NCBI GenBank assembly: GCA_025359565.1
Contig: JANYFY010000023.1
Coordinates: forward strand, 1-64,000
Source: Gammaproteobacteria bacterium
GTDB lineage: Bacteria > Pseudomonadota > Gammaproteobacteria > Steroidobacterales > Steroidobacteraceae
DNA: 64,000 bases
Reading direction: 5' to 3'
Position 1 is the stretch's first letter. The number at the start of each line of letters is the position of its first letter. Shown here in pieces: positions 7,228-29,832 of the stretch. Below the pieces are notes generated by a model. The model saw only the letters and a program-made list of their open reading frames with translations. It had not been told where the DNA came from and did not search any database. Both the position numbers and the translations under genes were made by a program.

Positions 7228-7240
7228 GTTTTTCGTCCCT

Positions 7241-10923: not shown

Positions 10924-10932
10924 AATCGGATT

Positions 10933-11577
10933 ATGCTCGAACTTGGCCTCAAAACGCTGCTCGCTTATTTTTTGGGGACCCTCTTGGGCAGTTTGTTGCT
11001 CGGGACGTTTAAGGGAGTAGATATACGAAATTCCGGTAGCGGAAACGCGGGGGCCACAAATGCATTGCGCACGCAAGGCAAAATTTTCGCTATTGGCGTA
11101 CTAATCATCGATATTGGTAAAGGCCTATTGGCAACAGCTTGGGTGCCGACCCTAACGTTTTCAGGCATTACTCCAGATCCAGAGATAGGTCAGTATGGTT
11201 TAGTTTTAGCCTGTGGTGTCGCTGTAATATTGGGCCACGTTTATCCAGTATGGTTTGCTTTTCGCGGCGGCAAAGGGGTGGCAACCATATTCGGTGTGAT
11301 TGCGGGCATCGATGTGCGCTTAATATTGCCCGTAGGGGTTAGTTGGCTTTGCATGCTGGTGGCGACCGGATATGTCGGTCTTGCGTCCATGTTGGCCGGC
11401 GTTGCGCTGGTGGTCAGCGTATATTGTTTAGACCCAGGCAACACACCGTTATTGCTGTTCAGTGTCCTGGTCACCCTCTTTGTGGTCTACACCCATCGCA
11501 GCAACATTGTGCGCATGTACTCGGGAAATGAGCATCGGGTGCGCCGTCTATGGTTGTTTCGATCTCGGAAAGCATAG
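10933..11577 (+). CDS. plsY: Acyl-phosphate glycerol-3-phosphate acyltransferase
   Basis: PlsY transfers the acyl group from acyl phosphate to sn-glycerol 3-phosphate, the first step of membrane phospholipid synthesis, in the inner membrane. The 214-residue product has about five hydrophobic helices and the family's conserved loops: NSGSGNAGATN near residue 35 and GHVYPVWFAFRGGKGVAT near residue 100. The ATG at 10933 is divergent from opgG. The end overlaps the birA frame by 28 bases, so plsY, birA, the SPOR gene and the small membrane protein probably form one transcript. Confidence 0.93.
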   Translation: MLELGLKTLLAYFLGTLLGSLLLGTFKGVDIRNSGSGNAGATNALRTQGKIFAIGVLIIDIGKGLLATAWVPTLTFSGITPDPEIGQYGLVLACGVAVILGHVYPVWFAFRGGKGVATIFGVIAGIDVRLILPVGVSWLCMLVATGYVGLASMLAGVALVVSVYCLDPGNTPLLLFSVLVTLFVVYTHRSNIVRMYSGNEHRVRRLWLFRSRKA

Positions 11578-14243: not shown

Positions 14244-14300
14244 CCGGACATTAAACTATCGGGTGAATGGTCGGACCTTTGAGTATTGAGGAGATTTGCT

Positions 14301-15563
14301 GTGATATCAAGACGTACTTTTATGGCGGCGGTTGGTGCAGTAAGTGCTGTGCCGCAGTTTTTCAGTGTACTGAAAGCGGAGGTAGCGGCCGCTAAACCCA
14401 TTTCGGTAGGGGAAAGACAAACTCGAATAGCAAAATTACAGCGTCTTATGCTCGACCGTAAGGTGGGTGCACTCTTGGTCGAACCCGGCTCGACGCTCGA
14501 TTATTTCACTGGAATTCGTTGGCATCGATCCGAACGTACGACTGCGGCGATCATTCCGGCGCGGGGTGAAGCGGTGGTGATCACGCCTGCTTTCGAAGAG
14601 CCTTCAGTACGCGAAACGTTGCAAATAGGGGGTGAGGTGCGCGCTTGGAACGAAGCGGACAGTCCGTTTGAACGCCTGGTGCAGGCGTTAAGAGATCGGG
14701 GTGTGCACGAAGGATCGGTTGCGGTCGAATCCACTACGCGGTTCTTTATTGTGGATGGAATCCGCCAGCTCTCGCCCCGCTACCAGTTCATAGCCGCGGA
14801 TTCGTTAGTGGGAGCATGTCGTCTCATAAAATCGCCTACCGAACTAGCGCTGATGCAACTCGCCAATAATGTGACTATGGCTGCGATGACCAAGGTGCAT
14901 GCGCGGGTTTCACTAGGCATGAATTCGGACGAAATTGCGGCTCTGATGAACGAAGAGACTGCAGTCTTGGGCGGTTTGCCAGAATTTTCTCTGGTCCTGT
15001 TAAATGAGGCCTCTGCTTATCCGCACGGTTCTCGTCAGGCGCAAACTGTTCGTGAAGGGTCTATCGTGTTGATGGATTGTGGTTGCTCAGTGCAGGGTTA
15101 CCAATCGGATATATCCCGTACTTGGGTTCACGGCTCTGCTACTCGGCATCAAAGAAAGGTTTGGGAGACCGTCAAGCGTGGACAAGAACTTGCACTGGAA
15201 ACAGCCAAGATCGGCATTCCAACTGGCCATCTGGATGACGTGGTTCGCGCCTATTACGAGCGCGAAGGCTGGGGGCGTCACTATCAACTGCCGGGATTAC
15301 CTCATCGCACCGGACATGGAATCGGTATGGATGGACACGAGAGCGCCTATCTGGTGCATGGTGACACCACAGCACTCCAGGTTGGGATGTGTTTTTCCGA
15401 TGAGCCGGGACTTTATATTCCGGGCGAATTTGGGGTTCGTTTAGAAGACTGCTGGTACATGAGCGCGGCAGGTCCTGTCACTTTTACGGCACTTGCGGAT
15501 TCGATTGATAGGCCAATGGGTGTTAAAATAACAGCTAAATCAAACAAGGAAGCCGTTGCATGA
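14301..15563 (+). CDS. Exported M24-family metallopeptidase (Xaa-Pro aminopeptidase type)
   Basis: The GTG at 14301 follows GAGGAG by 8 bases and gives a product starting MISRRTFMAAVGAVSAV, a Tat signal, so the 420-residue enzyme should act in the periplasm. The C-terminal pita-bread domain carries all five metal ligands of the M24 family: both Asp in MDCGCSVQGYQSDIS, His in TGHGIGMD, Glu in SDEPGLY and Glu in VRLEDCW. The N-terminal domain matches creatinase/prolidase folds. It probably trims peptides with proline at position two. The stop overlaps the next gene by four bases, linking it to the LolA-like and Asp-box genes. Confidence 0.88.
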   Translation: MISRRTFMAAVGAVSAVPQFFSVLKAEVAAAKPISVGERQTRIAKLQRLMLDRKVGALLVEPGSTLDYFTGIRWHRSERTTAAIIPARGEAVVITPAFEEPSVRETLQIGGEVRAWNEADSPFERLVQALRDRGVHEGSVAVESTTRFFIVDGIRQLSPRYQFIAADSLVGACRLIKSPTELALMQLANNVTMAAMTKVHARVSLGMNSDEIAALMNEETAVLGGLPEFSLVLLNEASAYPHGSRQAQTVREGSIVLMDCGCSVQGYQSDISRTWVHGSATRHQRKVWETVKRGQELALETAKIGIPTGHLDDVVRAYYEREGWGRHYQLPGLPHRTGHGIGMDGHESAYLVHGDTTALQVGMCFSDEPGLYIPGEFGVRLEDCWYMSAAGPVTFTALADSIDRPMGVKITAKSNKEAVA

Positions 15564-16336
15564 ATCGAAGCTACTCAATGTTACCAATGGCCGGGTTATG
15601 GTGTTTTTCTCACTTGTTGTTATCGGCACCGATTTTTGCAGCCACCCTAACACTGGATGAATTAGTGAATAAGAATATTGAGGCACGCGGGGGTCTTGCC
15701 GCTGTGCATGCGATGCAATCGCTTAAAATCCAAGGCAAGCTATTGGTTAATGATGGCCAGTTCGAACTTGCATTCGTGCAAATCGTGCGCCGACCCACAT
15801 CGGTGCGCACGGAGGCTACTATCCAAGGATTGACGCAAGTGCAGGCCTACGACGGATCTGCGGGTTGGCAGATTAACCCGTTCCAGGGACGTAAGGATCC
15901 GGAGCGATTATCGGCAGACGATGTCAAGAGTCTGGCGGAGACTGCAGCTGACTTTGATGGTGCGTTGGTTGATGGAGGCCCGAAAGGCAATAAGTTTGAG
16001 TATTTAGGAACGGAAGATATTGAAGGCACGCAGGCGCATAAAATCAAGCTGACGCGGCCGAGCGGGGATACGGAGTATGTGTATCTTGATCCGGACCATT
16101 TTCTGGAAATCCGCGTGTTAAGTCAGCGTACCGAACATGGGGTCCAAGTCGAGACTGAGACCGATTTAAGCGATTATGAAAAAATAGAAGGTGTATTAGT
16201 GCCATTCTCGATTGTGACGGGTGAGAAAGGCTCTTCTGATCGGCAGAAACTGATTGTGAGTCATGCAGAAATCAATGCGAAGGCCGATGCCGGGTTGTTC
16301 GAATTTCCAGCGACGAAGCCCAAAAGCGGCACTTGA
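15560..16336 (+). CDS. Exported LolA-like (outer-membrane lipoprotein-sorting type) protein
   Basis: The 258-residue product begins with a Sec signal (FSHLLLSAPIFAATLT). It continues with TLDELVNKNIEARGGLAAVH, AYDGSAGWQINPF, YVYLDPDHFLEIRV and ETETDLSDYEKIEGVLVPF. These match the LolA/LppX-like half-barrel proteins often annotated as outer-membrane lipoprotein-sorting proteins. Such folds bind lipids or hydrophobic ligands in the periplasm. The start codon overlaps the peptidase stop (ATGA), so the two are translated together. The gap to the Asp-box gene is about 30 bases. It is too divergent and in the wrong context to be the housekeeping lolA. Confidence 0.7.
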   Translation: MNRSYSMLPMAGLWCFSHLLLSAPIFAATLTLDELVNKNIEARGGLAAVHAMQSLKIQGKLLVNDGQFELAFVQIVRRPTSVRTEATIQGLTQVQAYDGSAGWQINPFQGRKDPERLSADDVKSLAETAADFDGALVDGGPKGNKFEYLGTEDIEGTQAHKIKLTRPSGDTEYVYLDPDHFLEIRVLSQRTEHGVQVETETDLSDYEKIEGVLVPFSIVTGEKGSSDRQKLIVSHAEINAKADAGLFEFPATKPKSGT

Positions 16337-16370
16337 ATAAAAACGTCATTTGAATCTTAGGATGCACAAA

Positions 16371-19300
16371 ATGTTTCATACTCGATTTGTAATTGCTGTA
16401 GCCGTTGGAGTATTTGCGGCGTGTCAAGGAATCGCGGGAGATTTAGCGCCTTTTTCGTCGGCTACAATCTCAGGGTTAGGTGCGCGCAATATTGGATCGG
16501 CAACCATGAGCGGGCGCATTTCGGCCATCACAGGTTTTAAAGACCCCTCCGGACGAACAATCCTGTACGTGGGAGCGGCAAGTGGCGGCGTTTGGAAGAG
16601 CTCGGATGGGGGCACTCGCTACAAGCCCTTGTTCGACCAAGAGTCGGTGCAATCTATTGGATCAGTCGCGTTGGATCCCTCAAACCCGCTAAATGTTTGG
16701 GTAGGCACAGGCGAAGCTTGGACCCGTAATAGTGTATCCATTGGCGGCGGCATCTATAAATCCAGTGATGGCGGTGACACCTGGCGTAATGTAGGTCTGC
16801 CCAATTCTGAGCGTATTGCCAAAGTATTGGTGAATCCGAAAGATCCTAATATGGTGTATGCGTGTGTCGCGGGTAAGCTTTGGAGCGATTCCGCAGACCG
16901 TGGCTTGTATAAGACAGTCGATGGCGGCAGTCACTGGAAAATGATTCTCAAGGGGGCCAATCTTTCTACGGGTTGTGCAAGCGTGGCATTGGATGTCAAT
17001 AATTCCGAGGTTATTTTTGCAAGTCTTTGGGATTTTCGCCGTAAAGGGTGGACCTTTCGTTCGGGTGGAGAGTCTGCTGAGACGGTTTCGGGCAGTGGCC
17101 TATTCCGCTCAAGTGATGCGGGGGAGACTTGGGCTGAGATTACCGATTCCAAGAATTCCGGATTTGCACGTAAGCCTTTCGGTCGTATTGCGGTGGCCGT
17201 GGCGCCGAGTCAATCGAATCGTATTTATGCGTATGTTGAGTCGGCCGATAGTGCGATGTATGTATCGGACGATGCAGGTAAGACCTGGCAACAGCGTGAC
17301 AAGAGTCAGTGGATGGTATGGCGTTCGTTCTACTTCGCTAACTTAATCGTCGACCCTAAGAATGCGGACCGAGTCTTCAAAACCGATGGCGCCTTGATCG
17401 TCAGCGATGATGCCGGCAAAAGTTTTAGCGCAGTGGGTGGTTTTGCGGGTATGCATGGCGATGTACATGATTTATGGATTGACCCGTCTAATCCGCAGAG
17501 CATTGTAGCGGGCGATGATGGGGGTATTTGGTATTCCTACAATGGCGGCACTAAGTGGTGGAAGGGCGGAAATCTTCCTCTATCTCAGTTTTATCATGTC
17601 AGTGTCGACAATGCTGATCCTTACCGCGTGTATGGTGGTTTGCAAGATAACGGTTCGTGGATTGGTGCGACGAGTCATCCGGGCGGTATCACCAATGCTC
17701 AATGGCAAACGGTTTATGGCGGAGACGGTTTTTGGGTATTTCAAGATCCTTCCGATCCTAATTACGTCTATGCCGAGGCGCAGGGTGGTTTTATAGGTCG
17801 AGTTAATCGTTGGAATTATGAGACGCGCGATATTCATCCGTTGCTTAATACTGAAGATCTTTCTAGGTACAAGAAACTTCGTTTTAACTGGAATACGCCT
17901 ATCGCCCTTTCGCCGAATGAGAGCGGTACGATTTATTTGGGCAGTCAGTTTTTATTTCGCTCTAAGGACCACGGGCAAAGTTGGGCGCGCATTTCCCCAG
18001 ACTTGACCACCAACGATCCTGCTCATCAAAAGCAGGAACAATCGGGCGGCGTCACGGTAGATAATTCTGCCGCTGAAATGTATGAAACGATATTCTCAAT
18101 TAGTGAATCACCTAAAAATTCTCGCGTAATTTGGGCGGGAACCGATGACGGGCGTTTACAAGTCACGCAAGATGCCGGAGAGCATTGGCAAGATGTCATT
18201 GCGAATGTCCCCGACCTTCCCAAAGGAGCCTGGGTCAATTGGGTGCAAGCGAGTAACTTTGACGCGGGCACTGCTTATGCGGCCTTTGATTTGCACACGT
18301 TTGGAGATATGGGGACGTATGTTTATCGCACGCGAGATTTCGGTAAGACTTGGGTGCCTTTGGTCACGCCCAAAGATTCAAAAACTGTTCGAGGGTACGC
18401 GCATGTCATTAAGCAAGACTTAAAAAGTCCGGGGCTTTTATTTCTAGGGACTGAATTTGGATTGTATGTGTCAATTGACGCAGGCGAACGTTGGGCGCAA
18501 TTCAAAGGCGGGCACATCCCTAATGTGGCGGTTCGTGATATTGCCATCCAGCCGCGCGAAAATGATTTAGTGCTTGCGACGCATGGTCGCGGCATTTGGA
18601 TTATCGACGACATTACCCCACTACGCGCTTTGTCGGCGGAGGTGTTGGCGGCGGAATTTACCATGATTGCCTCAAGGCCAGCCATTCAGCGGTTGCGCCC
18701 GAGCGGCGGCGAGGTAACGGGTGCCGCGGTGTTCATCGGTGATAATTCGCCGGATGGCACCGCGATCGTGTATTACCAGCGGGCGCGGCATCTGTACGGG
18801 AAACTCAAGCTTGAAATACTGGATTCAGCGGGCAAAGTGGTGGCGGATCTTCCCGCGGACAAGCGACCTGGTTTGAATCGCGTTATTTGGAATATGCTTG
18901 AGAAGCCGCCGCGCGTGCCGCCGGCAGCACAGTTGGCGGGGGCGGGTACCCAAGGTGCTCGAGTCTTGCCCGGAAATTATAGGGTTCGCATGACCAATAA
19001 CGGGAAGGTCTATGAGTCACCCTTGGTGGTGGCAATTGATCCGGCGGCGACTTTTACGGGGGCTGATCGAGAGGCGCAACATGCGGCGGCGGCGCGCGTG
19101 AAAAAACTTTTCTCGAGCGAAAGTCAGTTGATGGAGCGGATTGTGGGATTGCGCAGTCAACTGGGGAAGGCTGCGGGTTTGCTCAAGAAATCTGCTGGGG
19201 CAGATAATGTGACGCTACTTGATACGCAGGTCGATGCGGTTCGCAAAGAGATTGTCGCAACCACCGAGGGCGGTGCAATCACCGGTGAAGAACGACTCCG

Positions 19301-19619
19301 TGAACATACCGATCAACTATACGGTGCATTGTTGACCTTCGAGGGCAAACCCACTGACTATCAGCAAGCAAATGTGGTGGCACTAGAAGCTGAGTATTCG
19401 CGCATTCAGGGTAAATTCGAGCTTTTAATGGCCAAAAATTTGCCTGCGCTTAACAAGGCGTTGGTAGGTGCAGGCCACGCGGCATTAGAAGTTCCCAAGA
19501 ACGACCCTCAGGAAGACGAAACGGATATTGCATCGGCCAATCCCCATGCCGGTCAGATGGACGCGGATATCGTGATGCAGAGTCGTTTGCCAGCTGATTT
19601 TCGCCTCTTAAGATTTTAG
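16371..19619 (+). CDS. Secreted Asp-box (BNR) beta-propeller protein, sortilin/VPS10-like, copy 1
   Basis: The ATG at 16371 has TTAGGA 8 bases upstream; in-frame ATG 16362 and TTG 16350 are alternatives. The 1082-residue product has a signal peptide (VIAVAVGVFAACQGIAG). About a dozen Asp-box motifs of SxDxGxTW type follow, for example SSDGGDTW, TVDGGSHW, SSDAGETW, SDDAGKTW, SKDHGQSW, TQDAGEHW and TRDFGKTW. These build a large double propeller like VPS10/sortilin or xyloglucanase folds. A conserved THGRGIWIIDD closes the propeller, followed by a beta domain and a helical C-terminus. Catalytic residues of glycosidases are not evident. It precedes the TonB receptor by 14 bases and has a paralogue at 21804. 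Confidence 0.8.
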   Translation: MFHTRFVIAVAVGVFAACQGIAGDLAPFSSATISGLGARNIGSATMSGRISAITGFKDPSGRTILYVGAASGGVWKSSDGGTRYKPLFDQESVQSIGSVALDPSNPLNVWVGTGEAWTRNSVSIGGGIYKSSDGGDTWRNVGLPNSERIAKVLVNPKDPNMVYACVAGKLWSDSADRGLYKTVDGGSHWKMILKGANLSTGCASVALDVNNSEVIFASLWDFRRKGWTFRSGGESAETVSGSGLFRSSDAGETWAEITDSKNSGFARKPFGRIAVAVAPSQSNRIYAYVESADSAMYVSDDAGKTWQQRDKSQWMVWRSFYFANLIVDPKNADRVFKTDGALIVSDDAGKSFSAVGGFAGMHGDVHDLWIDPSNPQSIVAGDDGGIWYSYNGGTKWWKGGNLPLSQFYHVSVDNADPYRVYGGLQDNGSWIGATSHPGGITNAQWQTVYGGDGFWVFQDPSDPNYVYAEAQGGFIGRVNRWNYETRDIHPLLNTEDLSRYKKLRFNWNTPIALSPNESGTIYLGSQFLFRSKDHGQSWARISPDLTTNDPAHQKQEQSGGVTVDNSAAEMYETIFSISESPKNSRVIWAGTDDGRLQVTQDAGEHWQDVIANVPDLPKGAWVNWVQASNFDAGTAYAAFDLHTFGDMGTYVYRTRDFGKTWVPLVTPKDSKTVRGYAHVIKQDLKSPGLLFLGTEFGLYVSIDAGERWAQFKGGHIPNVAVRDIAIQPRENDLVLATHGRGIWIIDDITPLRALSAEVLAAEFTMIASRPAIQRLRPSGGEVTGAAVFIGDNSPDGTAIVYYQRARHLYGKLKLEILDSAGKVVADLPADKRPGLNRVIWNMLEKPPRVPPAAQLAGAGTQGARVLPGNYRVRMTNNGKVYESPLVVAIDPAATFTGADREAQHAAAARVKKLFSSESQLMERIVGLRSQLGKAAGLLKKSAGADNVTLLDTQVDAVRKEIVATTEGGAITGEERLREHTDQLYGALLTFEGKPTDYQQANVVALEAEYSRIQGKFELLMAKNLPALNKALVGAGHAALEVPKNDPQEDETDIASANPHAGQMDADIVMQSRLPADFRLLRF

Positions 19620-19633
19620 CGGGTTTTGGTGAT

Positions 19634-21715
19634 ATGCGAATTTCAACTTGTACCGGCCTGTTGGCTCTGGTTTTCAAGTCTGCGCTAACGTTTGGTGGCG
19701 CTGAGGTCGCAGTCTCAGAGCCCGGCGACTCCTTGGTCGTGACGGCGACTCGGACTCCCGAGCCGATGTTGCAAATTCCGGCGGACGTCTCGCTGGTGGA
19801 AGGTTGGGAGTTGCGGGCGCGGGATGCCTTGGATCTGGCGTCGGCGTTGAGCCTGGTGTCGGGCGTGGATGCGCCCGCGGGGGGTGATGCGGGACCTTCA
19901 AGTGCAGTGCCCTCGTTCTGGGGATTGCATGAGTTTGATGCATTTCTACTCGTGGTCGATGGCGTGCCTTGGGGAGGTGCTTTCAACCCCGGCATATCGA
20001 CGCTGGATTTTAATCATATAGAGCGTGTCGAGGTACTAAAGGGTTCGGCACCCGTAATGTACGGTGCAACGTCGTTTGTGGGGGTGATCCAGGCGCTTCA
20101 TTACCCGGCGGGTCAGGCAGCCGATGAAGCTGTTTTGGCGTTGGGTAGCTATGGATCTTTGCGGGGGTCGATTTCCGCTGCACTTCCTTCAAGCAATGAC
20201 TATCAGCAGTCGATTGCAATCGATGTACAAAAACGCAGTTATTCAGATTCACGGGAAGTAGCAGGCAATCAAAATCTGCTTTATCGCGGTGAGTTAAATC
20301 TTGGAGTCGGAAAACTACGCATTGATGCGGGCATTCATTTGGTTCGCGACGTGCCTGGCAGTCCTGTAGGACGTGACGGCTCGGTACTCACGAGTCTTGA
20401 GCCGCTGGATGCCAACTTCAATCCGGCAGACGCAAGGATTGACGAGGACAAATATCAGTTAGTGGTGGGGTATTCGCGACGGGGAGCGTGGGGTAGTTGG
20501 GAGACACTCGCCTCGTATACCTATTCTCGCGTCACCGATATTAGGGGATTTTTGCATTCCGACCTTACGGGTAGTGCGGATACGCAAAATCAGCATCGCA
20601 GTATTGACGACGGCTATTTTGATACTCATTTAGTGAGTAATCCCGCGCCCAGTGTGACATGGGTTGTCGGTGATGATTTGCTCTATGGTTTCGGAAGACA
20701 AAAGACACTGAACAGCAATAGCGCGTATACGGTGCCCTTGGACGGTTCGGTGGTTCCACCATCGACCGGTGATTTGGCTGCCAATGAAATAGTTACCTTG
20801 GCTGATCGACGCCTGTTTTCCGGCCAGTATGCGCAGCTGGATTGGAAGCTTCATAGCGACTGGGATGCGATGGCTGGTATTAGATTGAATGAGGTCGTAG
20901 AGAATAAGGATTCTAGTGATCTTAATTTGCCACCCCCACAGCTAAAAGCGGTGAGCGCACACAAGAGTACGATACGTCTTACGGAGTCTCTCGGCGTTAA
21001 TTATCGCTTTTGGAAAGAGCGTGAGAACGAAGCAGTCGTGTACGCGGATGTACGCACTGCTTTTAAGCCTGCAGCCAATGATTTTGGTCCGGATTTTAGG
21101 CCAAACTTGCTGCAAGCAGAGCAATCACGCAGTGTTGAGGTTGGAATCAAAGGCCAGATAGCCAGTCGGTTGACCTACCAGTGGGAAGCCTTTGAGATGA
21201 GTTTGAGTAATTTGGTAGTGGCAACCGATTCAGGTGCGCTCGCCAATGCCGGTGGCGAAAAATTAAAGGGTATGGATGCGGAGGCCCGCTTTCATCTGAC
21301 ACGGGATTTCGCTGTAGCCGCAGGCGGCTCTTATCACGATGCACGCTATACGGAGTATGCGGTTTTCGACGGTATAAGTGTGATCGATGTTGCCGGACGT
21401 CAATTGCCCCTGTCATCGCATGTGCTCGCAACGCTGGGCGTACTTTTCAACCCGGTCCAGGGCTTGAATGCAAATATAGTGGCCAAGTATGTGGGGCCGC
21501 GTTATTTAGACGCACAAAACGTTGCCGCGGTGGGCGGGTATGTCACGCTGGATGCGAGCATTGGGTTTCGTACGGCTCATAGTCAAATTACTCTGGAGGG
21601 CACCAACCTCAGGAATCAACGGCCACCCGTCACTTCGAGCGAATTCGGAAGTTTATCGTTCTACCGCCTTAACACGCGCGATCTTTGGTTACGCGTGGCA
21701 TACCACTGGAGTTGA
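19634..21715 (+). CDS. TonB-dependent outer-membrane receptor
   Basis: A 693-residue receptor: short signal sequence, a TonB-box-like SLVVTATRTPEP near residue 35, a plug domain (DAFLLVVDGVPWGG, HIERVEVLKGSAPVMYGATSFVGVI), and a 22-strand-type barrel with alternating aromatic strands. It ends WLRVAYHWS, whereas most members end in an aromatic residue. Such receptors import siderophores, vitamins, sugars or peptides using TonB energy. The gene is sandwiched between two Asp-box protein genes on the same strand, and a Tat-exported peptidase is three genes upstream. Its ligand may therefore be peptide-related, though that is inference. Its start is 14 bases after the first Asp-box gene. Confidence 0.88.
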   Translation: MRISTCTGLLALVFKSALTFGGAEVAVSEPGDSLVVTATRTPEPMLQIPADVSLVEGWELRARDALDLASALSLVSGVDAPAGGDAGPSSAVPSFWGLHEFDAFLLVVDGVPWGGAFNPGISTLDFNHIERVEVLKGSAPVMYGATSFVGVIQALHYPAGQAADEAVLALGSYGSLRGSISAALPSSNDYQQSIAIDVQKRSYSDSREVAGNQNLLYRGELNLGVGKLRIDAGIHLVRDVPGSPVGRDGSVLTSLEPLDANFNPADARIDEDKYQLVVGYSRRGAWGSWETLASYTYSRVTDIRGFLHSDLTGSADTQNQHRSIDDGYFDTHLVSNPAPSVTWVVGDDLLYGFGRQKTLNSNSAYTVPLDGSVVPPSTGDLAANEIVTLADRRLFSGQYAQLDWKLHSDWDAMAGIRLNEVVENKDSSDLNLPPPQLKAVSAHKSTIRLTESLGVNYRFWKERENEAVVYADVRTAFKPAANDFGPDFRPNLLQAEQSRSVEVGIKGQIASRLTYQWEAFEMSLSNLVVATDSGALANAGGEKLKGMDAEARFHLTRDFAVAAGGSYHDARYTEYAVFDGISVIDVAGRQLPLSSHVLATLGVLFNPVQGLNANIVAKYVGPRYLDAQNVAAVGGYVTLDASIGFRTAHSQITLEGTNLRNQRPPVTSSEFGSLSFYRLNTRDLWLRVAYHWS

Positions 21716-21803
21716 AGGACATTGAGCGTATTGCTGCGTTTGAACAAATATTTAGTTTATCCTTACGCGCTTAGCGCAAGTTACAGCGTGGCTTAGGTGA
21801 AAT

Positions 21804-24800
21804 ATGCTCATTCAATTTCGTCGGATATTGGCTCACACGGTTTTTGCGGCGTTCGTCGGTTCGCTATTCGGGGTCAGCGAGGGGGCGACCGGTGGGGCGG
21901 TGACGAGCAGCGGCGCAGCTGCAGTCACCGCTGACTTAAGTTGGCGCTTGGTGGGACCGTTTCGTGGAGGCCGAACTCGGGCGGTGACGGGTATACCGGG
22001 CCAGCCTGAGAGTTTTTTGATCGGTGCGGTCAATGGTGGCGTTTGGAAGACCGACGATTACGGCCGTACATGGACACCGCTGTTCGATTCGCAACCGACG
22101 CAATCGATTGGCGCAATTGCGGTTGCGCCCTCCAACTCCCGTGTTATTTATGTGGGGTCGGGTGAAGGTTTGCTGCGTCCCGATTTGTCGGTGGGCAACG
22201 GTATTTATCGATCAGCCGATTCAGGCCAGACTTGGACTCATCTTGCACTTGAGGATGCACAGCAAATTCCGGACCTTGCGGTCGATCCGCGCGATGCGAA
22301 TCACGTGTATGCCGCAGTGCTGGGACATCCGTTTGGCCCGAGTACAGAACGCGGTATTTATCGCTCCTTAGATGGGGGCGGTCATTGGACCCGTGTGCTT
22401 TACCTAGATGAGAACACGGGCGGATCAAGCGTCAAGATTGATCCTTACGATCCGAATACTTTATTCGCGTCCCTATGGAACGTGCGCGCGGGTCCCTGGG
22501 AAGATAACAATGTCTATAACGGTACCTCGGGAGGACTTTATAAGTCTACTGACGGCGGTGACCATTGGCGTCCGTTGAAACGCGGATTGCCGGAGAATCT
22601 TTCGCAGATTGAAATTACTGTAGCCCCTAGCCAACGCAATCGATTGTATGCGACCACAGCGACTAGCGCGCCGGGAGACTATAGTTCGGCGGCGGGTCTT
22701 GGCGTGTATCGGTCGGAAGACGCTGGCGAATCTTGGACGAAGATTACCACCGATCCGCGACCTGCACTACGTATCGGGGGCGGTGATCTTCCCATTATCA
22801 GGGTTGATCCGAGTAATGCCGAGATTTTGTATAGCGCTAGTATTGTCACGATGAAATCGGTTGATGGCGGTGTGCATTGGACCGCACTGCGGGGAGCGCC
22901 GGGTGGCGATGACTATCAGAATTTGTGGATAAGTCCCGATAACCCTCGACATATCGCGCTCGTCGGCGATCAGGGTGCGGTCATTACCGTGAATGGGGGA
23001 GTCACCTGGAGTTCTTGGTTCAATCAACCGACCGCTCAGCTCTACCATGTGGGTGTCACTAACTCCTATCCGTATCGGATTTGTTCCGGCCAACAGGAAA
23101 GCGGTTCGGTGTGCATCGCGAGCCGCGGCAATGATGGCGATATTACGGGACGTGAGTGGCATCCAGTCGGGGTGATCGAGTACGGCTATGTCGTTCCCGA
23201 TCCGCAAGATCCTGAGATTATTTATGGGGCCGGGCGCAATGTAGTGACGCGCACTCACCTGTCGACCGGCCAGGTGCAGGACATAACGCCAATACCCATT
23301 AAAGATACCGACACGCGTACCGATCGGACCGAACCGCTGTTTTTCTCACCGCAACATCCTACCCAGATGTACTACGCGGCTAACCGATTGTATAAGACCA
23401 TTAATGCCGGTGATACATGGAAAGCCATTAGCCCTGATCTTACCCGCATTGATGCGGGTACACCGGCAAGTGTCGGCACGATGCTTAACGCAAAGGCTGC
23501 GAAGCAGCGCGGCGTGATATACGCAGCAAGTCCGTCAATCATCGGGGAAGGGCTCATCTGGGTGGGCACGGATGATGGGCTTATTTGGGTCACTCACAAT
23601 GACGGGCAGGACTGGAAAAATGTGACGCCTCCGGACTTGGGGCCTTGGAGCAAGGTCACGCAAATCGAGGCCTCCCATTTTGATGCGCTGAGTGCATTTG
23701 CGTCGGTGAGCCGACTGCGGGTCGATGATCTCAAGCCGTATCTGTACCGCACCCGAGACGGCGGCAAGAGTTGGCAGCTCATTATCAACGGATTAAACCG
23801 AGATGCGCCCGCTAATACCGTGCGCGAAGATCCCGTGCGCCGTGGTTTGTTATACGTGGGAACGGAGAGTGCTGTATCCGTATCCTTCGACGACGGAGAT
23901 CATTGGAGTTCCCTCCAGTTGAATTTGCCGCATACGTCAGTGCGGGATCTTGTGGTGCATGATCAAGACCTGATTGTGGCAACACATGGGCGTTCTTTCT
24001 GGATTTTGGATGACATTAGCCCATTGCGACAATACTCGGAGCGATTTTTAAAAGAAGAGGCAGTCTTGTTAAAGCCGGCGCAAGCGGTACGAGTAAAGCG
24101 GAGCACCGGTTCAGATACTCCCGTACCTCCCGATGAGCCTTATGGACGCAATCCGCCGGACGGTGCTGTGCTGGACTATTTTTTAGGCAAAGACGTTAAG
24201 GGAAGTGTGGCGATTGAAATATTGGATGCTAGTGGCGCGTTAGTGAGGCGTGTGTCTAGCGATGAGCCTATGGTGTTGAGTCCACAAGATTTGGACCGAG
24301 AGCTCATTCCGAAATATTGGATTCGCATGCAGCCGCCGCCCTCGAATCACGCGGGCTGGCATCGTTGGGTGTGGGATCTGCACTTCGCCGCGCCACATGT
24401 GGCGTTGCGCGGATTTCCTATTTCTGCAGTGCCGGGCGATACGCCATTGGATGCAATAGGGCCTGCGGCTGTGCCGGGTGAGTATCGTGTAGTTTTAAAA
24501 ATAGGCGCTCATCATTGGGAACAACCATTGCACGTGATTGCCGACCCGCGCATTAAACTGCAACCGAATGAACTTGATACTCAACTTAAATTGGCGCAGC
24601 GTCTAGCGAGCGCATTGGATGAAAGTACGAGTGCATTGCTGGCGGCGCGCTCGTTGCGCGGGCAATTGAAGAATATTTCTTCGCCGAGTGATGGGATTGC
24701 GCCCCATGAAGTTAAATCACTCGACCAGAAAATCGCTGCATTGTTAGAGGCTCAAGAAGCCAGCGCGGGTGCAGTGGCGTCTGTGGGTGTTGAGCGCATA

Positions 24801-25034
24801 AATACGGATTTGGGTACACTTTATCACCAGATAACTTCTGCGGATGCAGCACCGACTGCGGCGCAGGTTACGGCCTCAGAGCAAGCTATGCAGAGTTGGC
24901 GGACGGCTGCTGCAACGTGGGTGCACGTGCGTGATGAGATGGTGACTCTAAACAAGAGTTTAAGCAGGGTTCATAAGGCGTTACGCTTAGATCTTGCACC
25001 TCCGCGCGATGCGGAGCAAGCAGACCTAGAGTGA
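21804..25034 (+). CDS. Secreted Asp-box (BNR) beta-propeller protein, sortilin/VPS10-like, copy 2
   Basis: A 1076-residue paralogue of the protein at 16371. It has a Sec signal (ILAHTVFAAFVGSLFGVSEG), then Asp-box motifs such as SADSGQTW, SLDGGGHW, STDGGDHW, SEDAGESW, TRDGGKSW and SFDDGDHW. The closing motif is THGRSFWILDDISPL, in the same place as THGRGIWIIDDITPL in copy 1. After the propeller come a beta domain with PGEYRVVLK and a helical tail (LKLAQRLASALDES). Both copies are nearly the same length and flank a TonB receptor. The stop overlaps the GTG of hemH. No enzyme active site is obvious; proteolytic or ligand-binding roles are both possible. Confidence 0.8.
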   Translation: MLIQFRRILAHTVFAAFVGSLFGVSEGATGGAVTSSGAAAVTADLSWRLVGPFRGGRTRAVTGIPGQPESFLIGAVNGGVWKTDDYGRTWTPLFDSQPTQSIGAIAVAPSNSRVIYVGSGEGLLRPDLSVGNGIYRSADSGQTWTHLALEDAQQIPDLAVDPRDANHVYAAVLGHPFGPSTERGIYRSLDGGGHWTRVLYLDENTGGSSVKIDPYDPNTLFASLWNVRAGPWEDNNVYNGTSGGLYKSTDGGDHWRPLKRGLPENLSQIEITVAPSQRNRLYATTATSAPGDYSSAAGLGVYRSEDAGESWTKITTDPRPALRIGGGDLPIIRVDPSNAEILYSASIVTMKSVDGGVHWTALRGAPGGDDYQNLWISPDNPRHIALVGDQGAVITVNGGVTWSSWFNQPTAQLYHVGVTNSYPYRICSGQQESGSVCIASRGNDGDITGREWHPVGVIEYGYVVPDPQDPEIIYGAGRNVVTRTHLSTGQVQDITPIPIKDTDTRTDRTEPLFFSPQHPTQMYYAANRLYKTINAGDTWKAISPDLTRIDAGTPASVGTMLNAKAAKQRGVIYAASPSIIGEGLIWVGTDDGLIWVTHNDGQDWKNVTPPDLGPWSKVTQIEASHFDALSAFASVSRLRVDDLKPYLYRTRDGGKSWQLIINGLNRDAPANTVREDPVRRGLLYVGTESAVSVSFDDGDHWSSLQLNLPHTSVRDLVVHDQDLIVATHGRSFWILDDISPLRQYSERFLKEEAVLLKPAQAVRVKRSTGSDTPVPPDEPYGRNPPDGAVLDYFLGKDVKGSVAIEILDASGALVRRVSSDEPMVLSPQDLDRELIPKYWIRMQPPPSNHAGWHRWVWDLHFAAPHVALRGFPISAVPGDTPLDAIGPAAVPGEYRVVLKIGAHHWEQPLHVIADPRIKLQPNELDTQLKLAQRLASALDESTSALLAARSLRGQLKNISSPSDGIAPHEVKSLDQKIAALLEAQEASAGAVASVGVERINTDLGTLYHQITSADAAPTAAQVTASEQAMQSWRTAAATWVHVRDEMVTLNKSLSRVHKALRLDLAPPRDAEQADLE

Positions 25035-26047
25035 GTCGACCTGCTGAGCATGTGGCAATTGCGCCAGCGAAGATCGGAGTGTTGCTAGTGAATTTGGGGA
25101 CACCGGATGCGCCGACGGCGAATGCGGTGAGGCGTTATTTGGCTGAATTCCTCTCGGATCGACGCGTGGTCGAATTGCCGGCTATTGTGTGGCAACCGAT
25201 ATTGCGCGGTATTGTATTACTTACACGACCGGCCAAATCCGCCAAGCTCTATGCCAAGGTCTGGGATCATGCGCGAGGTGGATCACCCCTGGCTTTGTTT
25301 ACTGCTGATCAGTCATTAGCATTGCAAGGTGCCTGGGGTGCAGGCGTAGTAGTGGACTATGCTATGCGCTATGGCAATCCTGCGATTCCGCTGGTAATTG
25401 ATCGACTGCGTACACTAGGGGTAGAACGTTTGTTAGTGGTTCCGTTGTACCCGCAATATAGTGCGGCGACCACTGCCACGGTGATGGATGCGGTTGCGGC
25501 GCATTTAAGCCGTATGCGTTGGCAACCGGCTTTGCGGACAGTTCCTCCTTACTATGATGATCCTGCTTATATTGATGCGCTGGTGAAGAGTGTGCGGTCC
25601 CATTTGAGTGGTCTAGACTGGCGGCCTGAGATGATTTTGACGTCCTTTCACGGGATGCCGCGGATTACCTTAATTAAAGGCGATCCCTATCATTGTCATT
25701 GCGCGAAAACAGCGCGGTTATTGCGCGAGGCGCTTGGACTTGAATTGGCACACATGACACATAGTTTTCAGTCGCGCTTTGGAGCACAGGAATGGCTTAA
25801 GCCCTATAGCATAGAGAAAGTTGCTGAGCTGGCTAAGAATGGGGTGAAAAAACTAGTACTCATTGCGCCGGGATTTTCCTCTGACTGTCTGGAAACTTTG
25901 GAGGAAATTCAGCTCGGGCTCGCCGAAGCTTTCCATCGTCATGGGGGCACGGAATTCTCGTATATACCTTGTCTAAATGCGAGCGCGCCGGGTGTTGAAC
26001 TTTTAAAGCGCCTCATAGGGCGGGAACTTCAGGGTTGGCTAGCGTAG
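25031..26047 (+). CDS. hemH: Ferrochelatase
   Basis: HemH inserts ferrous iron into protoporphyrin IX, the last step of haem synthesis. The 338-residue product shows IGVLLVNLGTPDAP at the N-terminus, VPLYPQYSAATTATVMDA, the active-site LTSFHGMPRI, the catalytic region around AHMTHSFQSRFG, and GFSSDCLETLEEI. The GTG start overlaps the stop of the Asp-box gene (GTGA), so it is coupled to that cluster. Whether the coupling has meaning for the receptor's ligand, such as haem or iron, cannot be settled here. Confidence 0.95.
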   Translation: MSRPAEHVAIAPAKIGVLLVNLGTPDAPTANAVRRYLAEFLSDRRVVELPAIVWQPILRGIVLLTRPAKSAKLYAKVWDHARGGSPLALFTADQSLALQGAWGAGVVVDYAMRYGNPAIPLVIDRLRTLGVERLLVVPLYPQYSAATTATVMDAVAAHLSRMRWQPALRTVPPYYDDPAYIDALVKSVRSHLSGLDWRPEMILTSFHGMPRITLIKGDPYHCHCAKTARLLREALGLELAHMTHSFQSRFGAQEWLKPYSIEKVAELAKNGVKKLVLIAPGFSSDCLETLEEIQLGLAEAFHRHGGTEFSYIPCLNASAPGVELLKRLIGRELQGWLA

Positions 26048-26064: not shown

Positions 26065-28014
26065 TTAGCATCGCGTTTTTGCGAGTGCTTTAGCGATTTT
26101 GTGTTTGCTTACCGTGGTGCGCGGCACTTTGAAATTAAACCAACTACGGATATCTTCCTCTAGCCCCACACCATGCATGTAATTATAGAGCGCTTTTTTG
26201 AGTGCGCCGCCCAGCGCATCGTGATCGACTCCGCTGGGGTCGTAAAAAGAAATATCGTTTTTTGCAAAGCTAATTGCGGGTAACGGCTGTAGCGTGACCG
26301 AATAGGCGGCAGGATTTTTGCCAACGGGGGAGTGCACGGTGCATGTAAAGCGGTGAAAGAATCCGCTTTGTATACAACCATTGTAAAAAAGTTGTCGTAC
26401 GTATTCCAGCGCATCCACGGTGTCTTGGACGGTTTGAGTCGGAAAACCATACATGAGGTAGGCATGCACTAAAATGCCAGAATCGCTGAACGCTTTGGTG
26501 ACTTTGGCGACTTGTTCGACCGATACACCCTTCTTCATGAGATGTAAGAGTCGATCTGATGCTACCTCCAGTCCGCCCGACACGGCGATGCAGCCGCTTT
26601 TTGCAAGGTGCTGGCAGAGCGCGGAGGTAAAAGTTTTCTCGAAGCGGATATTGCCCCACCAGGAAACTGCGCTGCCGCGGCTGATCAATTCGGTTGCGAG
26701 CGCTTTGAGTGCTTTCGGCGGAGCGGCTTCGTCGACAAAGTGAAAGCCTGTCTGCGCGGTTTCGGCGACGATTGTTTCTATGCGATCCACCAGAGTCTTG
26801 GCGTCTGCTGCGTCATAGCGTGAGATATAGTCTAAGCTCACATCGCAAAAGCTACATTTTTTCCAATAGCAACCGTGCGCTATGGTAAGTTTATTCCAGC
26901 GACCGTCGCTCCATAGTCGATTCATGGGATTGAGCATGTCGAGTAGTGAAAGATAACTGTGGAGAGGCAAACCATCCCATGTGGGAGTACCCACTTCGGC
27001 AAAAGGAATTTCGACTGCGGGATGATTAAAATAGCGAACCTCTTGCGTCTTCCCGTCGCGTATAAAACATCGCACCAGTTCGATGTCGGGACCTTGAGCC
27101 TGCAAGTGGGTCAGTAAAGCGAGCAAGGGGCGTTCGCCGGAATCGAGCGTCACAAAGTCAAAATAATCAAATACGCGAGGCTCGGCGAGTTCGCGAAGTT
27201 CCGTGTTGACGTAACCACCCCCGAGTACAGTTGTAATGTGCGGATAAGTTTTTTTTATGGTTTGCGCAATTCGAAATGCTGCATACACGGAGCCCGGGAA
27301 AGGCACCGATAAAAGTACTACTGTGGGTTGGTGGCGTTCGATACTCGCGGTGGTAAGGGCGATCAGTGTGTTGTCCACTAAGTTCGGTGTCGCGGCCAGG
27401 GCCTCTGCCAATGGATCAAAGGTTGGTTGGCTACTCGCAATTTTTTCGGCATAGCGAACAAATTCGAAGCGGCTGTCCACGCTATCTCGCAATACATCAG
27501 CGAGATCATTTAAATACAGAGTGGCTAAATGCCGCGCACGATCTTGAAGCCCTAAAGTGCCGAATGCCCACGCCAGAGGATCGACGTCGGCCGCGGCGCC
27601 TGCGACCTCGTCACTTAAAAATTCTTCTATGTTTGCGAAACGCGATCCTTCAGGAAGATAGCGGCGGGTAATAATACGATGGGCTAGGGTCGCATTGCGG
27701 CCTTGCAAGAAGGCGATCACGGGGTCGATGGTCGCAAGGTAGCGTGCAAACTCCTTGCGGAAAAAATCGACCCTGGTTGAGGCTTGAGTCGCGGCTTGTA
27801 GTTTAATCAGTCCCGAGCTTGAAAACAGCATCAGAACTAGCGCCAATGCTAGGTCTTCCTGTACGGCATAAAAACCGCGTGAGCGTAAAAATCCTGTCAG
27901 GTAAGCAGTCGATGGGTAGGGTGTGTTGAGCTGTGTCATCGGGGGGATGATGCTGAGAATGCGCACTGACCCCGGTGCTTTAGGCACAATTTTACGAATA
28001 TTTCGAACGAGCAT
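26065..28014 (-). CDS. B12-binding-domain radical SAM protein with unusual CX4CX2C cluster motif
   Basis: The 649-residue product has an N-terminal cobalamin-binding Rossmann-like region (VVLLSVPFPGSVYAAFR, VLGGGYVNTEL, DSGERPLLALL) and a radical SAM barrel beginning LTIAHGCYWKKCSFCDVS. The three cysteines are spaced CX4CX2C rather than the usual CX3CX2C; the DNA there reads cleanly in frame. Later motifs fit the family: VSGGLEVASDRLLHLMKKG and AYLMYGFPTQTVQD. B12 radical SAM enzymes perform methylations and rearrangements in natural product, lipid or cofactor synthesis. The substrate is unknown. It is convergent with hemH and upstream genes on its strand are the rhomboid and SUMF1-like genes. 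Confidence 0.8.
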   Translation of the reverse strand: MLVRNIRKIVPKAPGSVRILSIIPPMTQLNTPYPSTAYLTGFLRSRGFYAVQEDLALALVLMLFSSSGLIKLQAATQASTRVDFFRKEFARYLATIDPVIAFLQGRNATLAHRIITRRYLPEGSRFANIEEFLSDEVAGAAADVDPLAWAFGTLGLQDRARHLATLYLNDLADVLRDSVDSRFEFVRYAEKIASSQPTFDPLAEALAATPNLVDNTLIALTTASIERHQPTVVLLSVPFPGSVYAAFRIAQTIKKTYPHITTVLGGGYVNTELRELAEPRVFDYFDFVTLDSGERPLLALLTHLQAQGPDIELVRCFIRDGKTQEVRYFNHPAVEIPFAEVGTPTWDGLPLHSYLSLLDMLNPMNRLWSDGRWNKLTIAHGCYWKKCSFCDVSLDYISRYDAADAKTLVDRIETIVAETAQTGFHFVDEAAPPKALKALATELISRGSAVSWWGNIRFEKTFTSALCQHLAKSGCIAVSGGLEVASDRLLHLMKKGVSVEQVAKVTKAFSDSGILVHAYLMYGFPTQTVQDTVDALEYVRQLFYNGCIQSGFFHRFTCTVHSPVGKNPAAYSVTLQPLPAISFAKNDISFYDPSGVDHDALGGALKKALYNYMHGVGLEEDIRSWFNFKVPRTTVSKHKIAKALAKTRC

Positions 28015-28039
28015 TAGTTATAGACGAGTTTACGCCGAT

Positions 28040-28990
28040 TTAGTGCGGGATGTTTTGGTGCAGGGCGGCGCTCCAGGCGAGTAGTACTGATAGAGTTGCT
28101 AAAGCACCTGCGATGATTTGGGGCTTGCTACTGCGGGTGCGAGGTATAGCTAGCCGAGCATAAATCCATCCCAGCGCGATGCCGCTTGAAAATCCCAGCA
28201 AATGACCTACCACATCGACATGCTCTGTACTGGGGGCACGGTCTGTGCCTGCCCCTGCCCCGGTTCCTAGTAAGGCTAATAAGCTAATTCCTGCAAACAA
28301 GGGTGTCCATCGATACAGCCAACGCTCGCTTAGGGTTAACCGCTGGGCCCAGGCGAATCCCGATAACAGTCCCAGGCCTGCAAACACTGCAGTGGATGCA
28401 CCTACGCATCGATACCCCAGGGGTGCCACGAGCATTTCGACGCAATTTGCGAAGGTGGCTGCGGCTAGAATGCCGCCCCAGGCGATTCCGGGTCCAAAAA
28501 GGGAGCTGGCGAGTGATCCGGCTCCGATTCCGAAAGCGACATTGCTGAGTAGATGCGCTTGATCTAAGTGCAAGGTCAACGCCGTGATTGGCCTCCACCA
28601 TCCGTGCAAGTTACTCCGATAGTCGGTAAGTGCACCCACGGATAACCAATCGACTCCTAGTAAATTCGTGCCGACACAGTAGGCCGTGGTGAGCAAGACG
28701 ATAGTAAAGCCTATTGCGCCAATGGCGATACCGGAAAAAGGTGTAACGGCAGCGATTTTAGTGCGGTATTTCTTAGGTTCAGCGATATAGGAGGATAGTT
28801 CTTGGGTCGCGACCAGGGCGGTTTCAGGCGTTACGCTAATAACCCACGAGTCGCCGATTTCAGCTAGGTCGTGTGTTAGTCCCTTGGCGTCGAGCACAAG
28901 GGCGAGTTCAAAAGCGCGCATCCTCGATCCGTGGAATAGCCAAACGCTATCGTTGCGCGCGGGGTGTGCGAGTGGCGCCGAGTCGTTCAT
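28040..28990 (-). CDS. Rhomboid-family intramembrane serine protease
   Basis: A 316-residue protein with a soluble N-terminal part (about 80 residues) and six to seven membrane helices. The rhomboid catalytic features are present: HLDQAHLLSNVAFG (HxxxN, oxyanion support), CVGASTAVFAGLGLL (GxS with the nucleophilic Ser) and VDVVGHLLGFSSG (catalytic His). Rhomboids cleave single-span membrane proteins within or near the membrane. It lies 14 bases after the SUMF1-like gene and 25 bases before the radical SAM gene on the same strand, so an operon is likely. The substrate is not known. Confidence 0.85.
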   Translation of the reverse strand: MNDSAPLAHPARNDSVWLFHGSRMRAFELALVLDAKGLTHDLAEIGDSWVISVTPETALVATQELSSYIAEPKKYRTKIAAVTPFSGIAIGAIGFTIVLLTTAYCVGTNLLGVDWLSVGALTDYRSNLHGWWRPITALTLHLDQAHLLSNVAFGIGAGSLASSLFGPGIAWGGILAAATFANCVEMLVAPLGYRCVGASTAVFAGLGLLSGFAWAQRLTLSERWLYRWTPLFAGISLLALLGTGAGAGTDRAPSTEHVDVVGHLLGFSSGIALGWIYARLAIPRTRSSKPQIIAGALATLSVLLAWSAALHQNIPH

Positions 28991-29004
28991 GGTTTTACCG
29001 GGTA

Positions 29005-29832
29005 TTAATCGAGTGCCAGTCGAAAACCCATGCCGTTGTGTACTATCCCCTCATCTTCTCGACCGCGTGCGGTCACACGTAGCCAGGGGGAGTCGTTATC
29101 CCAGGATCCGCCGCGGTGTACATGTCCTTGAGCGCAATGCTCGGACCAGGCCGCACCATTCTTTGGCGCGCCGATATAATTGTCATGCCAGCAATCTTGC
29201 GTCCACTGCCAGACATTGCCGATCATGTCGTATAGACCCCAGGCATTGGGTGGGAATTTGCCGACGATGCTGGTCTCTTTAACATTTAATGCGCCGTTGC
29301 GCTGCCGCGGATCATCCGCGTTACCCCAGGGGTAATCAGTCCGGGTTCCTGCGCGAGCTGCATACTCCCATTCGGCTTCGGTGGGGAGTCGAAACCGTAG
29401 CTTCGTGGTTCGATTGAGCCATTCTATGAAATTTTGGGAGTCCGCCCAACTGACATAGATCGCCGGTTTTTGACCGCGACCCCAGCCTTCATCATCAATA
29501 AGTTTTCGCCCGGTCGCCTCAGTGAATGAATCGTACTGTGCAATGGTTACCAGATATTTCGACAGGCGGAATCTCTTCAGCGTGATTTTATGGGCGGGTT
29601 TTTCCCATTCTTGCGCCTGTTTTGCGTTATGGCCCATCAAAAACGATCCCGCTGGGATCGGCACCATGTCTGAAATCACATGGGCGAACGAATCTCCTAA
29701 GGGTGTAAGGTTATCGGGGTTCGTTTTGGCGAAAAGAGCGGTACTTATGCACAAAAACACTATCGCAATGGGTAGAGCGATACTCCGAAATTTTAGCCTC
29801 GAACGAACCCTAAGCTGATTTTCGTTGCTCAT
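29005..29832 (-). CDS. Exported SUMF1/FGE-fold protein
   Basis: The 275-residue product starts with a membrane signal (ALPIAIVFLCISTALFA) and then a complete SUMF1/formylglycine-generating-enzyme fold: VPIPAGSFLMG, LPTEAEWEYAARAG, DMIGNVWQWTQDCW, VHRGGSWDN and GMGFRLALD. True FGEs have a paired-cysteine copper site near the C-terminus; here the terminus is GFRLALD and no such pair is seen. It is therefore more likely a non-sulfatase-maturing relative, a family that also includes ergothioneine-pathway-like and lectin-like proteins. It heads the probable operon with the rhomboid gene. Confidence 0.78.
   Translation of the reverse strand: MSNENQLRVRSRLKFRSIALPIAIVFLCISTALFAKTNPDNLTPLGDSFAHVISDMVPIPAGSFLMGHNAKQAQEWEKPAHKITLKRFRLSKYLVTIAQYDSFTEATGRKLIDDEGWGRGQKPAIYVSWADSQNFIEWLNRTTKLRFRLPTEAEWEYAARAGTRTDYPWGNADDPRQRNGALNVKETSIVGKFPPNAWGLYDMIGNVWQWTQDCWHDNYIGAPKNGAAWSEHCAQGHVHRGGSWDNDSPWLRVTARGREDEGIVHNGMGFRLALD

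Follow-up and report, generated by a model that had tools for sequence, protein, structure and literature searches.

A cross-phylum gene pair encoding a LolA-fold protein and a giant Asp-box propeller protein at the core of a six-gene locus in a Steroidobacteraceae bacterium

Introduction

Do six tightly packed genes for an exported peptidase, a LolA-fold protein, two giant Asp-box proteins, a TonB-dependent receptor and a ferrochelatase form a single system, and if they do not, which of them belong together? The question is raised by a locus in a gammaproteobacterium of the Steroidobacteraceae (GenBank assembly GCA_025359565.1, contig JANYFY010000023.1), and it was approached from bases 1–64000 of that contig (contig 20 of a 3.14 Mb draft genome that is 98% complete), a stretch of 64,000 nucleotides referred to here as the window. 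The list of open reading frames (ORFs) places the six genes on the forward strand between 14286 and 26047, in the order M24 dipeptidase, LolA-fold protein, first Asp-box protein (ASP1), TonB receptor, second Asp-box protein (ASP2) and ferrochelatase (hemH), with intergenic gaps of −4 to 88 bp. Two of the junctions, M24/LolA (15560–15563) and ASP2/hemH (25031–25034), are 4-bp overlaps and the remaining gaps are 13, 14, and 88 bp. Given such short gaps and the two overlaps, a single transcript for all six genes is plausible, as predicted from spacing; scans of the locus for promoters and terminators returned no more sites than were found in shuffled sequences.

A preliminary description of this DNA, made from the sequence alone, had noted the six adjacent and partly overlapping genes, all of whose ORFs were recovered, and had assigned their families correctly, five being supported by Pfam or TIGR matches and the LolA fold by structure prediction. 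It went on to propose that the six together form an undescribed system that captures, imports and degrades a substrate. The analysis presented here points elsewhere. With a probability of roughly 0.55, pieces that were inherited separately have come together at this locus in this lineage only, their core being a carrier/scaffold pair consisting of the LolA-fold protein and ASP1, and what is new is a strictly conserved, undescribed partnership between two folds that are themselves already known.

The LolA-ASP1 pair

The genes for the secreted LolA-fold protein (258 aa, 15560–16336, + strand) and for ASP1 (1089 aa, 16350–19619, + strand) constitute an obligate two-gene pair across phyla. All six genes of the locus were searched across 150 genomes of the GTDB family to which the window belongs (hemH within the genus only), and each of the 16 genomes with a LolA ortholog (35–53% identity, a count that leaves out distant LolA-like paralogs of ∼30%) has an ASP1 ortholog (55–63%) immediately 3′ of it. 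With ASP1 as the anchor, LolA is found upstream in 16/16 family genomes and in both of two further class-level orthologs (G544, G438). When the LolA alignment was used to scan ∼85,000 named genomes, 80 loci were obtained, and ASP1 is directly downstream on the same strand in 79 of these, while the 80th (L162) ends 276 bp past LolA. Merging the family and named-genome loci, which have some genomes in common, gives 95 loci with both genes, and in all 95 the two are same-strand neighbors, with an overlap of exactly 4 bp in 32 and a distance of less than 45 bp in most of the others. The LolA and ASP1 protein trees also mirror each other closely (mirror-tree r = 0.90, with 0 of 1000 permutations as high). 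An all-versus-all comparison of the ORFs at the 80 LolA loci revealed no other neighbor that recurs beyond single lineages. The preliminary description had named a lack of conserved neighborhoods in relatives as grounds for refuting the six-gene system, and this is what the comparison shows for the six-gene unit, which is absent in relatives. The LolA-ASP1 pair is invariant across phyla.

The pair is rare within the class, as it is carried by 3 of 369 genomes of a class-level sample, the window genome included. Isolates that contain it include Dokdonella fugitiva, D. immobilis, Tahibacter harae, T. caeni, Mizugakiibacter sediminis and Rhodanobacter sp. B05, and it is also present in metagenome bins of Verrucomicrobiota, Acidobacteriota, Caulobacteraceae, a "Deltaproteobacteria" bin and Eremiobacterota. 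The phyla represented are Pseudomonadota, Verrucomicrobiota and Acidobacteriota, with two more going by the titles of metagenome-assembled genomes. The ASP1 tree joins the copy from the window and one from a Burkholderiaceae bin to a sister group of 17 Verrucomicrobiota sequences (support of 97 in the Shimodaira–Hasegawa-like approximate likelihood ratio test, SH-aLRT), away from two separate groups from the window's own GTDB family. Judged from these sequence comparisons, the pair has moved horizontally as a unit. Among 23 genomes of the window's genus it is found only in the window genome and in one other (G014), where LolA and ASP1 (73 and 77% identical to those of the window) stand alone on contig 352 (L164) and the receptor, an Asp-box gene and ASP2 lie on contig 101. 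The two modules are thus separable, because in this relative the pair and the receptor cluster occupy different contigs.

No published description of the LolA-ASP1 pair was found in a search of the open-access literature. A review of Asp-box proteins mentions many uncharacterized proteins with Asp-box repeats, and a search of its text gave neither LolA nor TonB (PMC2716378).

Predicted structures of the two proteins

The product of 15560–16336 reaches the cut-off of no family profile in Pfam, the LolA_like profile PF17131 giving 14.4 bits against a cut-off of 30. Its AlphaFold2 model, with a mean predicted local distance difference test (pLDDT) score of 89, has as its best Foldseek matches LolA3 of Porphyromonas gingivalis (E 8e-11), NE2245 and 3bk5 (both of the LolA superfamily), LolA and LolB, with a probability of 1.0 against the LolA and LolB structures, and at the level of the model the LolA fold is confirmed. 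Proteins of this fold, such as LolA, LprG and RseB, are hydrophobic-cavity carriers or sensors. The window protein resembles carriers such as LolA3, NE2245, LprG and RseB in its fold and in being small and exported, and differs from them in that it has no family profile above cut-off and in that its partner, ASP1, is only rarely a lipoprotein. Moreover, LolA carriers go with LolB or LolCDE, whereas the protein described here is paired with a propeller.

As a separate observation, LolA-like paralogs of ∼30% identity were seen at four loci (L043, L044, L045, L046), in tandem at three of them. They are followed by SCO1-like and cytochrome c-like genes at two loci (L044, L046), the gene ahead of them at three (L043, L044, L046) encodes a very large repetitive protein of at least 2500 aa, and they possibly represent another undescribed conserved cluster.

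ASP1 and ASP2 both match the Sortilin-Vps10/BNR families of Pfam, and both exceed the cut-off (33) of the Vps10p/sortilin profile PF15902, with 120 and 97.8 bits. In the AlphaFold2 model of ASP1, which is of moderate confidence (pLDDT 72), residues ∼40–760 form GH74-like tandem propellers and are followed by an immunoglobulin (Ig)-like region (∼770–896) and a helical bundle (∼904–1040). Foldseek ranks 1–22 are all GH74 (glycoside hydrolase family 74) tandem-propeller enzymes (E 7e-25 to 2e-20), with sortilin and SorCS2 being far poorer matches (template modeling score of ∼0.15 for sortilin versus ∼0.4 for GH74). GH74 xyloglucanases (2cn2/2cn3, 6mgj, 7kn8) consist of tandem seven-bladed Asp-box propellers, as does the ASP1 model, whereas sortilin is a single ten-bladed propeller with 10CC domains. 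The modeled ASP1 fold is GH74-like rather than sortilin-like, and the "VPS10" identity of the preliminary description turns out to be just the name of a Pfam family. Relative to GH74, ASP1 adds the Ig-like and helical C-terminal regions and an obligate LolA-fold partner, and it lacks the first catalytic Asp, as discussed below.

The helical bundle contains a motif, VAT[KT]EGGAITGEERLREH (ASP1 residues 969–986; 19254–19307, + strand), that is conserved to ≥96% at most positions in 72 ASP1 sequences and is not conserved in 33 Asp-box paralogs, ASP2 included, which are without a LolA partner. A 45% identical ASP1 paralog in another genome (G042; L265/L266) has neither the LolA gene nor the motif. 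Because the motif is nearly invariant in ASP1 and not conserved in partnerless paralogs, the partnered clade is also the motif clade, and the motif is proposed to be a docking or functional site.

The remaining genes of the locus

Downstream of the pair are the genes for the TonB-dependent receptor (693 aa, 19634–21715, + strand) and ASP2 (1076 aa, 21804–25034, + strand). The receptor has a Plug domain (PF07715, 59.7 bits) and a TonB barrel (PF00593, 90.5 bits), and its nearest relatives in the PDB are FhuA/PqqU/BtuB-like, at low similarity; receptor orthologs occur in 21/150 family genomes. The two propeller proteins are of near-equal length, as had been pointed out; they are not twins, however, being 30% identical and members of separate clades.

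If the locus were one system, both propellers would capture a ligand, such as peptides or an iron or heme ligand, at the cell surface for the TonB receptor, in the manner of SusC/SusD, and the exported dipeptidase would degrade it. The tight same-strand arrangement is consistent with this, as is the presence of an Asp-box gene directly 3′ of the receptor in three (L017, L018, L019) of the 23 receptor loci that were read in addition to that of the window; these three include an ASP2 ortholog in the first two and a gene of another Asp-box clade in the third. Co-occurrence across the family genomes points the same way, with ASP2 and the receptor found together in 13/16 genomes (expected 2.2), ASP1 and the receptor in 13/17 (expected 2.4), and ASP1 and ASP2 in 10 (expected 1.8), as scored on presence lists drawn from the best few candidates per genome. 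On the other hand, 20 of the 23 receptor loci have no adjacent Asp-box gene, ASP2 orthologs are mostly unlinked and beside unrelated genes (one, in L099, is immediately 5′ of LolA-ASP1), and the M24 and hemH orthologs are also located elsewhere. The close M24 orthologs do not co-occur with ASP1 in the 150 genomes (3 versus an expected 2.9). In phylogeny-controlled independent contrasts (RimO tree, 90 genomes) the associations have the same direction and are not significant, with a median p of 0.125–0.5, and of 0.125–0.25 for the pairs that involve the receptor. SusC/SusD-type systems likewise place a TonB receptor beside a large exported protein; however, the window locus has no SusD domain and its receptor/propeller adjacency is only occasional (3/23). 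A six-gene capture, import and degradation system is accordingly unlikely, its members being found apart in relatives. The narrower suggestion that the propellers are receptor partners finds support in adjacency in three further genomes and in genome-wide co-occurrence, and not in the phylogeny-controlled test; a loose functional link between the receptor and the propellers is possible.

Giant Asp-box genes were encountered elsewhere as well. The window genome encodes a third such protein (L026, 11241–14432; G000:C20, ∼126240–129431), the gene for which is convergent with that of a 1112-aa protein with a propeller-type, hybrid sensor-like N-terminus, and which groups in the tree with the receptor-adjacent Asp-box protein of L017. 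At six other loci (L062, L065, L063, L138, L113, L147), giant Asp-box genes of different clades are near one another in tandem, convergent or divergent orientation, and because such genes are often close together, it may be generally the case that unlike propellers are paired.

The fold of ASP1 raises the further prospect that ASP1 and ASP2 are GH74-like glycoside hydrolases that cut a polysaccharide, the products of which would be imported by the receptor. All of the top Foldseek matches are GH74 xyloglucanases, with E-values down to 7e-25, and GH74 proteins also match the ASP1 profile at the sequence level. At the position aligned with the first catalytic Asp of GH74 (R-[AT]-D-[VI]-G-G), which is presumably the catalytic base D70 of CtXGH74A, ASP1 has Ala77 (GAASGG) and ASP2 has Val (GAVNGG), however, and no further glycan enzyme is conserved nearby among the 80 LolA loci. 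The residue at this position is Asp in NkGH74 (sequence 6p2l) and Ala in 2cn3. An invariant GGLQDN (ASP1 429–434) is a candidate for the second catalytic Asp position, a site that the local alignments fall short of. With the first catalytic Asp replaced in both proteins, GH74 activity is not expected, and the hydrolase reading is quite unlikely.

Of the two outer genes, the first (14286–15563, + strand) encodes an M24B Xaa-Pro dipeptidase-like protein of 425 aa (Pfam M24, 161.6 bits, and Creatinase_N) that aligns with the proline dipeptidase 4r60 (E = 1.7e-81) and retains the five metal-ligand positions of the family, D, D, H, E and E, with the segments DCG, SDISRTW, GHGIG, DEPGLY, and VRLED. 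Its export by the twin-arginine translocation (Tat) pathway, which had been suggested earlier, agrees with the Tat motif SRRTFM, the RR pair of which is kept in four orthologs. The orthologs (51–70% identity) are located elsewhere, with a glycosyltransferase gene following in three of the four loci read. As a third member of the pair, M24 was rejected, since it is absent from the other LolA-ASP1 loci of the family and genus; it is probably a bystander. The last gene, hemH (25031–26047, + strand; TIGR00109, 259 bits), is 42–47% identical to the hemH genes of the genus, which are in other contexts, and 55% identical to that of Sinorhizobium, and this closer match hints that the window copy is foreign. 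It was likewise rejected as a system member in view of its different contexts in seven genus members, and is probably co-transcribed with the locus yet unrelated to it.

That all six are unrelated housekeeping or envelope genes brought together by chance in an ordinary operon assembly is compatible with a gene order that is not kept in relatives and with a G+C content of the six genes that resembles that of the surrounding DNA. Such an assembly is likely for M24 and hemH. It does not account for the constancy of the LolA-ASP1 pair, the joint transfer of the two genes or the motif private to ASP1, it is refuted for LolA-ASP1, and as an account of the whole locus it is very improbable.

Elsewhere in the window, a TonB-dependent receptor at 55582–58453 (− strand) is divided between two ORFs that overlap and differ in frame (plug, 57173–58453; barrel, 55582–57189), the result either of a frameshift in the gene or of an error in the assembly, and adjoins an amidase gene (58609–60219). 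The region 26065–29832 (− strand) encodes a B12-binding radical SAM protein (with a below-cut-off match to a C-methyltransferase of the maturation of ribosomally synthesized and post-translationally modified peptides), a rhomboid protease that weakly matches rhombosortase, and a protein with an FGE-sulfatase domain; an osmoregulated periplasmic glucan cluster at 5620–11076 (− strand) has two MdoG-family periplasmic glucan genes on either side of a glycosyltransferase gene.

Discussion

What, then, might the LolA-fold protein do for ASP1? There is a precedent for a LolA-fold protein that sits with one neighboring pathway in the flexirubin biosynthesis operon of Flavobacterium johnsoniae, which contains a LolA/LolB pair, LolA2-LolB2 (PMC11885536); there the partner is LolB, whereas here it is an Asp-box propeller protein. 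The fold of the protein, the strict pairing and the flexirubin precedent might imply a private Lol pathway, in which it would be a lipoprotein chaperone reserved for ASP1 and would bring ASP1 to the outer membrane. This is the least probable of the explanations considered, as 66 of 71 ASP1 orthologs have no lipobox Cys and their signal peptides are type I-like; ASP1 was rejected as a lipoprotein client on these grounds.

Because lipoprotein transfer fails in this way, the best remaining reading is that of a carrier or chaperone for a non-GH74 scaffold. The small, secreted LolA-fold protein would be translated together with ASP1 and would work for it alone in the periplasm, as a chaperone or as a carrier of a hydrophobic ligand, docking on the C-terminal helical region of ASP1 by means of the conserved EGGAITGEERLRE segment. 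ASP1 in turn, itself exported, would be a clamp, scaffold or binding protein, without GH74 function, and its ligand would belong to the envelope or the environment. A second and looser association, with ASP2 as the accessory propeller of the TonB receptor, would have become joined to the pair at this locus, and M24 and hemH would be bystanders, the receptor, peptidase and ferrochelatase having joined the pair only in this lineage. The six genes do not make up a single conserved system, and it is the LolA-ASP1 pair that has gone undescribed.

Several points weigh against this reading. Binding of the LolA-fold protein to ASP1 or to a lipid is hypothetical, and the adjacency of the two genes can also reflect a need for equal dosage. 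The ASP1 motif falls in a low-confidence loop of the pLDDT 72 model, and the simplest role for a LolA protein, lipoprotein transfer, is a misfit for the reason given above. The spread over phyla is based in part on metagenome bins, which may be contaminated; the Verrucomicrobiota ASP1 group is drawn from many bins. Finally, describing the receptor half as merely joined may be too strong, because ASP1, ASP2 and the receptor co-occur above chance.

A bolder form of the carrier/scaffold reading, which is tentative and somewhat doubtful, is that the pair is a mobile, self-sufficient envelope device of several phyla, in which a soluble carrier passes a hydrophobic molecule to a two-propeller acceptor by way of the docking motif. 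If true, carrier and acceptor would be paired independently of the Lol, Mla, and Lpt pathways, and coupling to a TonB receptor and to additional Asp-box proteins would be optional. Large Asp-box ("VPS10/BNR") proteins are abundant in many environmental bacteria, where they are annotated merely as sortilin-like proteins or glycosyl hydrolases. A partnership with one of them would be of a new type for the LolA fold. For the ASP1 clade, the constant partner gene and the private 18-residue motif provide a handle on function and a diagnostic signature for annotation.

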